Positions 3,941-30,186 of a DNA stretch of 37,722 nucleotides are shown here, piece by piece. The DNA is from Adlercreutzia sp. ZJ473. Lineage in GTDB: Bacteria; Actinomycetota; Coriobacteriia; Coriobacteriales; Eggerthellaceae. The translations under genes were made by a program, and so were the position numbers. The notes below the pieces were generated by a model that did no database searches, was not told where the DNA came from, and worked only from the letters and a program-made list of their open reading frames with translations. Numbering within the stretch: the first letter of the stretch is position 1; each line of letters starts with the position of its first letter. The stretch is from assembly GCF_013185065.1 (NCBI RefSeq), contig NZ_JAAVTO010000024.1:1-37722 (forward strand), given 5' to 3'.

Positions 3941-3980
3941 AAAAAATGGCGAAGCTCCACAAAAGAGCTTCGCCATTATA
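3941..3980 (-). terminator. Intrinsic terminator overlapping a putative symporter promoter
   Basis: On the minus strand a perfect 13-bp stem (arms 3965-3977 and 3945-3957, 7-nt loop) is followed by six T residues, which would stop transcripts arriving from leuA. The outer end of the 5' arm contains TATAAT (3980-3975), a good -10 box for a promoter starting near 3968, inside the hairpin. Transcripts from that promoter would lack the 5' arm and escape termination. No good -35 is visible, so the promoter half is inference. Confidence 0.7.
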
Positions 3981-4055: not shown

Positions 4056-4209
4056 AAGTCAGCGAGGGTTCTTGCGGTGCCTGAGATAGCCCCGCCGCAG
4101 GGCCAAGTGGGCTCCGCCCACGCCGAGCCCTGCACAAGGGGCTAGGTCAGGCACCGCAAGAAGCCGCAGCGTCGAGCAGTTCCGTTCGTCCCGTCAGGGC
4201 GAACGGAAC
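4056..4209 (-). ncRNA. Structured repeat element, copy A (two hairpins, conserved linkers)
   Basis: Lies 4 bp after the leuA stop. In minus-strand order it has: a hairpin with arms 4200-4209/4179-4188 plus an inner CCC/GGG helix closing a TGAC tetraloop; a 4-nt spacer; CGACGCTGCGG (4174-4164); a long rod with 16-bp outer arms (4162-4147 and 4084-4069) and three further nested helices; and CCCTCGCTGACTT (4068-4056), followed by a short T-run. Copy B at 26149-26295 repeats the unpaired segments exactly but has different, still complementary arms. RNA versus DNA function is not known. It could simply be a terminator for leuA, but conservation of the linkers argues for more. Confidence 0.6.
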
Positions 4210-4212
4210 AGA

Positions 4213-5733
4213 TTAGCGCTTCTCGGAGAGCAGGCGGTTCAGGGCGTTGAGGTACGCCTTCGTGGACGACACGATGATGTCGCCGTCGGCGCCGCGCCCG
4301 GTGTACACCTCGCCGTTGCCGGCCTTCACGCGCACGGTCACCTCGCCGAGGGCGTCGATGCCGCGCGTGACGGACTGCACGGAGAACTCGGTGAGGTCGT
4401 TGTCTACCTTGATGATCTGGTTCACGGCCTTGTACACCGCGTCGACCGGGCCGGTGCCGTAGGCGCACACGGTGATCGGCTCGCCCTCGGGGTTCGCGAG
4501 CGTGAGCGTGGCCGTGGGCGTGAGCGGGAAGCCGCAGCTGATCTGGACGCTCTCGAGCGTGTAGAGCGCGCTCTCCTCGCGGTCGCGCTCGTTCACGAGG
4601 CTCTCGAGGTCCTCGTCGTAGACCTCCTTCTTCTTGTCGGCCAGGTTGAGGAACGCCTCGTACACCTGGTCGAGCTGCTCGCCCTCGAACTCGTAGCCGA
4701 GCTCCTCGAGGCGGTGCTTCAGGGCCGCGTGCCCGCTGCGCGCCGTGAGCACGATCTGGCTCGAGCCTGCGCCGACGTCGGCCGGGTCGATGATCTCGTA
4801 GGTGTCGCGCTTCTTCAGCACGCCGTCCTGGTGGATGCCCGAGGAGTGCGCGAAGGCGTTCGCGCCGACGATGGCCTTGTTGGCCTGCACGTTCATGCCG
4901 GTGATGGAGCTCACGAGGCGGCTCGCCTTGATGAACTCGCGGGTGTTGATGTCGGTGTGCGCGTCAAGCTCGGCCTCGTGCATGCGGATGGCCATGACCA
5001 CTTCCTCCATGGCCGTGTTGCCCGCGCGCTCGCCGAGGCCGTTGACGGTGCACTCGACCTGCGTGGCGCCGTTCTTCACGCCGGCCATGGCGAGCGCCGT
5101 GGCCATGCCGAGGTCGTTGTGGCAGTGGACCGACACGGTGACGTTCTCGATGCCGCGCACGTTGTCCATGAGGTACTTGATGCGCTGGCCGAACTCCTCG
5201 GGCAGCGAGTAGCCCGTGGTGTCGGGGATGTTCACAACCGTGGCGCCCGCGTCGACGACCGCCTGGATGACCTTGACGAGGAAGTCGTAGTCGGACCTTC
5301 CCGCGTCCTCGGCGTAGAACTGCACGTCGCTCACGTACTTCTTCGCGTAGGACACCGCGTGCACGGCGCGCTCGATGCACTGGTCCTCGGTGATGCGCAG
5401 CTTGTCGCGCATGTGCGAGGGCGACACGCCGATGCCGGTGTGGATGCGGGGGCGCTTGGCGTACTTGAGGGCGTCGGCCGCCACGTCGATGTCCTTCTCG
5501 ATGGCGCGCGTGAGGCCGGCCACCGTGGCGTCCTCGCCCGCGAGCTCGGCGATGCGGCGCACGCTCTCGAAGTCACCTGGGCTCGATATGGGGAAACCCG
5601 CCTCGATGACATCCACGTTCAACCGCAGCAGCTGGCGGGCGATGACGAGCTTCTCCTCCGTGTTCATGGAAGCGCCCGGCGACTGCTCGCCGTCGCGCAA
5701 GGTGGTGTCAAAGATGTTGATCTTGCGGGTCAT
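4213..5733 (-). CDS. leuA: 2-isopropylmalate synthase
   Basis: First committed step of leucine synthesis: condenses acetyl-CoA with 2-oxoisovalerate to 2-isopropylmalate; cytosolic. The 506-residue length matches the short bacterial LeuA type. It opens with [16 protein letters not shown] (HMGL-like TIM barrel with the metal and substrate Asp/Arg), carries the metal ligands HCHND near residue 203 and NGLGERAGN shortly after, and ends in the regulatory domain (residues about 360-500) that binds leucine in the family. The start at 5733 has GAAGGAACC just upstream. It receives its keto-acid substrate from the ilvDBNC operon 12 kb away. A serA terminator and a TATCAT/palindrome region lie upstream, so it is probably its own transcription unit. 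Confidence 0.96.
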
Positions 5734-26148: not shown

Positions 26149-26295
26149 AAGTCAGCGAGGGAGGGCCTGGTCGCCCATATGCCGCGAAAGCCTGAGGAAG
26201 CGTACTGGGTACGTGACGAAGGCTTGGAGCGAGCAGATGGGCGACCAGGCCCTCCCGCAGCGTCGGCTCATGCGCTGTTGCGTCAGCAACAGCGC
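26149..26295 (-). ncRNA. Structured repeat element, copy B (two hairpins, conserved linkers)
   Basis: Lies 2 bp after the nucleoside phosphorylase stop. Minus-strand order: hairpin with 10-bp arms (26295-26286 and 26281-26272) closing a TGAC tetraloop; 6-nt spacer; CGACGCTGCGG (26265-26255); rod hairpin with 20-bp outer arms (26256-26237 and 26178-26159), an inner AAGCCT/AGGCTT helix and a CGTAC/GTACG tip; tail CCCTCGCTGACTT (26161-26149). Linker, tail and tetraloop equal those of copy A while every stem differs. The tail ends about 20 nt before the MBL gene start, so it also forms part of that gene's leader. Confidence 0.6.
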
Positions 26296-26297
26296 AC

Positions 26298-27128
26298 CTA
26301 GAGGCGCTCCACGATAGCCGTGACCAGGCGGCAGAAGTCGGCCTCGCGGCTCTTCGCCACCTCGAACACCTCTTGGTCGGAGGGGCTCGCGCCCTCCACG
26401 CCGCACGCCATGTTTGACACGAGCGACATGCCGAGAACGCGCATCCCCACGTGCCGCGCCGCGATGACCTCCTCGCACACGCTCATGGCCACCGTGTCGG
26501 CGCCCCAGGTGCGAAACGCGCGGATCTCGGCGGGCGTCTCGAAGCTCGGGCCCAGAAGCCCCAGGTAGACGCCTTCCTGCACGCGCACGCCGAGCTCGTC
26601 GGCCGCCTCGTGCGCCAGCGCGCGCAGGGCGGGGTCGTAGGCGTCCTTCATGGAGAAGAAGCGGAAGGCCACCTCGTCAGGCTCGGTTCCCGCCACGGGG
26701 TTGCGCCCCGTGAAGTTGATGTGGTCGCCCATGATGCAGAAGTCGCCCACCTCGTAGCCCGCGTTGATGGCGCCAGCGGCGTTCGTGGTGATGAGGGTGT
26801 CCACGCCGAGCTCGTGCATGAGCCACACCGGGTAGGCCACCTCCTGCGCCGTGTTGCCCTCGTAGCCGTGCAGGCGCCCCTGCATGCAGATGACCTCGCG
26901 CCCGCCGAGCGTGCCCACCACGAAGCGGCCCACGTGGCCCGTGGCCGTCGAGCGCTTCATGTGCGGCACCTCGCCGAACGGGATGAAGAGCGCGTCGGCG
27001 ATCTGCTCGGCCAGAAGGCCGAGCCCCGACCCCAAGATGACGCCCACCTTCGGCGCGCGCTCCCCCATGCGCTCGCGCATCTGCGCGCTCGACTCCGCCA
27101 AGCGCTCCCTCAACGTGCCCTCAGCCAT
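26298..27128 (-). CDS. Purine nucleoside phosphorylase (trimeric PNP type)
   Basis: Cleaves purine nucleosides with phosphate to free base and ribose-1-phosphate; cytosolic salvage enzyme. 276 residues with GVILGSGLG (phosphate loop), GRLHGYEGN (His at the active site), TNAAGAIN, and the base-binding stretch FETPAEIR...GADTVAMS followed by SLVSNMACG, whose Asn marks the 6-oxopurine (inosine/guanosine) type. ATG at 27128 with AAAGGAG upstream. It lies 121 bp after the acyl-CoA ligase. Immediately after its stop comes structured element B. Confidence 0.94.
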   Translation of the reverse strand: MAEGTLRERLAESSAQMRERMGERAPKVGVILGSGLGLLAEQIADALFIPFGEVPHMKRSTATGHVGRFVVGTLGGREVICMQGRLHGYEGNTAQEVAYPVWLMHELGVDTLITTNAAGAINAGYEVGDFCIMGDHINFTGRNPVAGTEPDEVAFRFFSMKDAYDPALRALAHEAADELGVRVQEGVYLGLLGPSFETPAEIRAFRTWGADTVAMSVCEEVIAARHVGMRVLGMSLVSNMACGVEGASPSDQEVFEVAKSREADFCRLVTAIVERL

Positions 27129-30140: not shown

Positions 30141-30186
30141 ATTGATTGTGAAACGATCTTCGTCACAGGTCGTTCGCAACGCCCAG

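Follow-up and report, generated by a model that had tools for sequence, protein, structure and literature searches.

A putative family of short interspersed DNA hairpin repeats placed behind stop codons in Eggerthellaceae

The question raised by this locus is what kind of element keeps its linker sequences identical from copy to copy while the stems between them are replaced. Two such copies are present, both on the minus strand, in the window, that is, the whole 37,722-nucleotide stretch of Adlercreutzia sp. ZJ473 (contig NZ_JAAVTO010000024.1) analysed here. Copy A follows leuA (4213-5733), the TAA stop codon of which (4213..4215) lies 3 nt ahead of it, and is composed of hairpin 1 (4179..4209; loop TGAC, stem with one bulged base), the left conserved linker CGACGCTGCGG (4164..4174), a big hairpin of 95 nt (4069..4163) and the right conserved tail CCCTCGCTGACTT (4056..4068). 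Copy B follows a purine-nucleoside phosphorylase gene (26298-27128), the TAG stop codon of which (26298..26300) stands directly ahead of it; the same parts are found in the same order, namely hairpin 1 (26271..26296; loop TGAC), the linker CGACGCTGCGG (26255..26265), a big hairpin of 93 nt (26162..26254) and the tail CCCTCGCTGACTT (26149..26161), with the next co-directional gene beginning about 11 nt further on.

An earlier note on this DNA had described the two copies as a structured element with identical linkers and covarying stems, and had proposed a 3'-UTR ncRNA, a specialised terminator or a mobile hairpin. Its description of the copies stands: the TGAC loop is common to both, the linker and the tail match exactly, spanning 119 and 117 bp as it had counted, and hairpin 1 begins 3 nt (copy A) and 1 nt (copy B) after the stop codon, within the 4 bp that it gave. 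The stems, which it held to share no identity, align in their interiors like shuffled sequence (36.5, against a mean of 38.4), and the self-complementarity that it reported is reflected in the folding of both copies, which is far better than that of shuffled sequence (z -10.2 for copy A and -9.3 for copy B). A remnant of a third copy, consisting of the right-end sequence GTTGCGAACGACCTG alone with a stop codon 6 nt before it, is found at 30166..30180 on the minus strand; the same right end also occurs 3' of the tail in other copies of this genome. An ordinary inverted repeat with a T-run, resembling an intrinsic terminator, occupies positions 3945-3977, 3' of copy A and before the next gene.

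In the window alone, the 11-nt linker is not significant (four one-mismatch matches, with 5.7 expected); the decisive evidence that the linker pair exceeds chance is genome-wide, since CCCTCGCTGACTT occurs seven times in the genome of the window, with CGACGCTGCGG upstream of all seven, and the backward control of CCCTCGCTGACTT occurs there zero times. The search for the pair elsewhere that had been suggested was thus positive. The exact tail is present in 26 of 59 sampled Eggerthellaceae genomes and in none of about 40 sampled genomes of the order outside this family. When 84,980 species were scanned, the matches lay chiefly in Gordonibacter, Adlercreutzia, Enteroscipio, Paraeggerthella, Eggerthella sinensis, Slackia and further Eggerthellaceae, a few others being apparently due to chance. 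A covariance model built from 44 copies finds at least 26 copies in the genome of the window, at least 48 in a same-genus genome, and at least 34 and at least 76 matches in two closed or nearly closed relatives, the last figure including reverse-strand matches to the same palindromes. In IMG/VR, zero exact linker/tail pairs were found, and one with a relaxed pattern. The earlier note had recognised no described family and, consistently, Rfam gives zero matches in the window at gathering score; the matches obtained at relaxed E-values were discarded, as they are sub-threshold and comprise generic microRNA-precursor hairpins only. A literature search on repeats of Eggerthella or Gordonibacter returned nothing relevant. 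Three genomes of another family of the same order (G068, G076, and G083) yield 15-26 covariance-model matches each, with E down to 4e-20, and lack the exact tail; judging from these matches, they probably carry a related element family.

The answer that we favour, with a probability of roughly 0.6, is that copies A and B belong to a new family of short interspersed DNA hairpin repeats in Eggerthellaceae, of the REP/BOX/MITE-like type. The anatomy, parsed from 154 distinct copies, follows a fixed order: stop codon, 0-5 nt, hairpin 1, linker CGACGCTGCGG, a big hairpin of 95-96 nt and tail CCCTCGCTGACTT, with ACCTG usually about ten bases 3' of the tail. The spacing from GACGCTGCGG to the tail is likewise 95-96 nt; the loop of hairpin 1 measures 3-4 nt and ends 17 nt ahead of the linker in 40 of 57 copies. 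The full unit is about 166 bp long, and a deleted form of about 74 nt, devoid of the big hairpin, is seen in L022, L059, and L063. The stop codon is most often 31-38 nt from the linker; in a further group, at 16-17 nt, it sits in the loop of hairpin 1. A co-directional gene start comes next after about 107 of 149 copies, and many copies thus lie inside operons. A protein-coding role of the tail (ALADF...) was considered and dismissed, by eye, as the reading frames differ among copies. In L007, L012, L044, L047, L362, L365, and L408, a second hairpin element is nested in the big hairpin, with a conserved CTCGGGCGCATAnATGG flanked by hairpins of variable stem.

The position of the copies, which without exception follow a stop codon and mostly (about 107 of 149) precede a co-directional gene start, is also the one to be expected of a structured 3'-UTR or intercistronic RNA on the sense transcript, such as an mRNA stabiliser or an operon processing site; moreover, copies A and B both fold strongly as sense RNA, and several genera have retained the element at greA and pheS. 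Covariation by itself is substantial: 46 of the 54 pairs are changed on both sides, double-change cells number 501 versus 162 in the shuffled control (a large effect, the control ignoring phylogeny), and the signal collapses on sliding the register by 1-3 columns. The two-hairpin element with covarying stems and conserved linkers, as proposed in the earlier note, is therefore real; two points of that proposal have to be corrected: it is the strand opposite the gene that folds, and variability extends to hairpin 1.

The strand opposite the upstream gene is the more stable in 145 of 150 copies with RNA parameters and in 147 of 150 with DNA parameters. In the genome of the window it is the better folder in 15 of 19 copies, not in all, and in copy A the two strands are nearly equal (-77.2 versus -79.9), because the 5' arm of its big hairpin has been changed to GGTGCCTGA, exactly complementary to the 3' arm, in place of the GGCACCTAA found in the related copy L003. 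In the outer and middle stem of the sense strand, G.T cells are fewer than A.C cells (12 versus 37); a sense RNA would leave the opposite bias. Sense-strand C.A/A.C mismatches at offsets 13-14, present in 95-98 of 150 copies, correspond to tandem T.G/G.T on the opposite strand, and sense-strand T.C/C.T at offsets 20-21, in 105-126 of 150, to tandem G.A/A.G. Among 144 hairpin-1 loops read on the opposite strand, 85 are GNNA and 31 GNA, only 10 being GNRA, and 96 are closed by C-G; in DNA, loops of the cGNNAg and cGNAg kinds are exceptionally stable. On the same strand, 43 copies have cTTCGg at the apex of the big hairpin, a loop that is stable in RNA as well.

These observations make a functional sense RNA unlikely: the sense strand is the worse folder in nearly every copy, its conserved mismatches are C.A and T.C rather than G.U, the hairpin-1 loops break the rules of RNA loops, and copies are freely lost between sister species. 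The 3'-UTR ncRNA option thus finds little support from strand and mismatch type, and the specialised terminator finds no better agreement, a run of five Ts following the tail in 4 of 149 copies and hairpin 1 in none. An antisense ncRNA transcribed from the strand opposite the gene would explain the G.U-compatible mismatches of that strand and its better folding, the conserved T.G tandem being a stable motif of RNA too, as is the cTTCGg apical loop; we nonetheless regard it as improbable, as no conserved promoter-like block is seen beside the tail, copies such as B leave about 11 nt before the next gene, GNRA is rare among the hairpin-1 loops, and the apical loop varies at the very position that an RNA UNCG loop keeps. 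Folding of the opposite strand, its conserved mismatches (tandem T.G and G.A), and its GNNA/GNA loops point to an element acting as DNA, not as a 3'-UTR RNA.

The orientation of the copies with respect to replication was evaluated in G042 (Gordonibacter sp. Marseille-P2775) and G057, in which the strand carrying the element flips at dnaA. Among matches with strong scores, 52 of 56 in G042 and 26 of 29 in G057 run with the fork, the terminus of G042 being placed at about 0.8-1.15 Mb from the GC skew of sampled pieces; with the terminus set exactly opposite dnaA, 46 of 56 still do so. The bias in G042 is significant (P ~5e-10), given that, in this genome, just 93 of 169 genes (55%) in 20 sampled pieces are co-oriented with the fork. 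It follows that the better-folding strand is the leading-strand template, as reported for the bottom strands of attC sites in large chromosomal integrons (PMC5371416). Such a polarity would arise if copies inserted into single-stranded DNA at the fork, or if those having their folding strand on the lagging-strand template were lost.

How stems may be replaced and yet remain complementary is suggested by copies in which the adjoining gene's end itself forms the 5' arm of hairpin 1 and recurs, as an inverted complement, in the 3' arm. This is observed for rpmD in the genome of the window (E-V-E-E-L-stop), for pheS (L-R-Q-F-stop) in L019 and L228, for glutamine synthetase III (GS-III) in L200, L210, and L244, for an ABC binding protein in L151, in L180, and for a cupin gene in three Gordonibacter. 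The cupin copies L057 and L177 differ between species by two synonymous changes (GTG/GTC and ACC/ACT), each of which has its counterpart in the 3' arm. Relatives devoid of the element conserve the C-terminal residues of rpmD and pheS, and the direction of copying is therefore from the gene to the 3' arm. In L168, the ordinary inner hairpin is kept and 12-13 outer base pairs, copied from the gene end, are added to it. Stems of at least 8 bp between gene end and downstream sequence are found in 14 copies, versus 2.2 after permutation, about half of the 14 being ordinary hairpins into which the gene reads. The big hairpin offers a parallel case: where L003 has GGCACCTAA, L005 has GGTGCCTGA, which is exactly complementary to the other arm.

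Rewriting of a hairpin in one event by template switching has been published (PMC8794818), and the inverted gene-end copies in hairpin 1 would best be explained by it; the likeness extends to the perfect stems, made or mended in one event from the other arm. The hairpins described there differ from the present ones in that here a dispersed repeat family is concerned, and in that a host gene end, stop codon included, may serve in inverted form as the new arm. Since hairpins are known to arise and persist through template switching (PMC8794818), and since correction or extension of arms is seen directly (L005 versus L003, L024 versus L023, L168, L057, and L177), the copies might be no more than passive palindromes, i.e. 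template-switching hot spots kept by mutation alone, having neither function nor mobility. This possibility is a poor one in our estimate: linkers, spacing, loops, and tandem mismatches are constant while the stems change, correction alone would erase the mismatches, and a dispersed family with constant ends needs a process of dispersal. A bolder proposal, in our view doubtful, is that a dedicated system would recognise the folded DNA strand at the fork and write the inverted last codons and stop codon into hairpin 1, tailoring each copy to its gene, either at insertion or during maintenance.

Orthologous sites were examined for the leuA copy, for copy B and for 20 further sites of the genome of the window, the latter in comparison with two same-genus genomes; across G000, G002, and G001 the sites are intact, truncated, or absent, a polymorphism of the MITE type. 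Some, greA and L364 among them, are filled in all three genomes. In G002, site L359 is filled by a copy with another hairpin type, L360, L362, and L372 hold an element truncated from either side, and L357, L369, L370, L373, and L375 are clean of it; the leuA site has a deleted copy in G002 and none in G001. At the copy B site, G002 retains hairpin 1, the linker, big hairpin and tail being missing. The latter site might suggest hairpin 1 as a pre-existing target, an idea which was rejected because hairpins of the GTTCCG...CGGAAC type are common to unrelated sites; the site was thus treated as a deletion product. The mixture of filled, truncated, and empty sites indicates a fast turnover of copies, which are apparently both gained and lost, the comparison of sister species alone fitting insertion or deletion; the presence/absence pattern supports the mobile hairpin among the options of the earlier note. 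For the clean filled/absent pair at L375 (versus G002), any target-site duplication amounts at most to a 2-bp TA. The most stable site seen is the 3' end of greA, where the element is present in at least five genomes of several genera (L361, L376, L379, L010, L027, and L072); the 3' end of pheS also carries it in several genera, and these two sites also fit vertical inheritance with a host function.

The earlier note had suggested looking for a linked Y1 transposase. None is apparent: PF01797 is absent from the genome of the window and from nine other copy-bearing genomes, including most of the copy-rich ones (the ten being G000, G001, G002, G007, G009, G019, G022, G023, G028, and G032), and the reverse transcriptase PF00078 is absent from most copy-rich genomes (G001, G005, G006, G008, G019, G022, G023, G024, G027, G028, and G032). 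No autonomous version of the element was found. Non-autonomous copies of a retroelement, or of an IS200/IS605- or RAYT-like single-strand transposon, would share with the family its mismatched hairpins, fork polarity, and 5'-truncated remnants; in view of these two absences such an origin is very improbable.

The DNA hairpin repeat that we favour would function as the opposite strand, in single-stranded or extruded form, read by a putative protein through its shape, its tandem T.G and G.A mismatches, and its linkers. The complementarity of the arms, and with it the covariation, would be kept by template switching, an arm being copied from the other arm or from the adjoining gene end, and selection would keep the fold; copies would spread as non-autonomous elements mobilised in trans by a putative enzyme. 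A benefit to the host, for instance the marking of gene boundaries in operons, would be secondary.

Among described repeats, bcr1 of Bacillus cereus (about 155 bp, many copies, a stable hairpin, reported compensatory changes) resembles this family; it differs in taxon, sequence, and described insertion site, and is not known to be placed at stop codons. REP sequences, GTAG- or CGTC-tagged, are short palindromes that number tens to hundreds and lie for the most part downstream of genes and in operons, with a conserved unpaired tag beside the hairpin (PMC3733652), features that are shared here; unlike them, the present element is a much larger two-hairpin unit of fixed length with hypervariable stems. 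GTAG lies within 8 nt of the foot of hairpin 1 in just 9 of 149 copies. The CGTC-REPs occur without a known transposase (PMC3733652), and CGTC is found in the linker of the present element, on the opposite strand; it lies there about 5 nt off the hairpin foot, not adjoining it, and the stem has 10-12 bp with G-C as first pair, unlike the 8-9 bp with two initial A-T pairs of CGTC-REPs (PMC3733652). REP/RAYT and IS200/IS605 systems differ by their Y1 transposase, which the genome of the window lacks. With the BOX, RUP, and SPRITE repeats of pneumococcus (PMC3049150), the family shares short, structured, modular, probably non-autonomous, and nesting repeats near gene ends, in full and reduced forms; the terminal inverted repeats and target duplications of BOX and RUP (PMC3049150) were not found here, apart from the 2-bp TA that L375 allows at most, and the stems vary with compensation. 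As in integron attC sites (PMC5371416), structure is conserved over sequence, the bottom strand folds, and the site directly follows a stop codon; unlike in attC, the paired RYYYAAC and GTTRRRY core boxes (the R-box pair) occur in 0 of 149 copies, and dispersed single genes take the place of a cassette array.

The family thus falls outside the described REP, attC, terminator, IS200/IS605, retron, and Rfam kinds, and is previously uncatalogued. Covariation is normally taken as proof of functional RNA; here about 150 distinct natural copies present a strong covariation that points to folding of DNA, in a family that allows strand, mismatch types, loops, and the link to replication to be distinguished. 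The stems that mirror synonymous codon changes make the template-switch origin of hairpins directly testable. For a gut lineage of clinical and metabolic importance, the family also represents an unannotated class of repeats that would otherwise be misread as ncRNA or terminators.

Apart from the studied element, a third hairpin family of the same design was observed in the pheS-pheT gap of L269, L271, L275, L280, L281, and L284, in the place where other genera carry the studied element; its outer and inner stems are variable, with CAGTCGCTCAGACAGTCCT and GCTGCGGAACTCGCTTGGTGAGCA constant.
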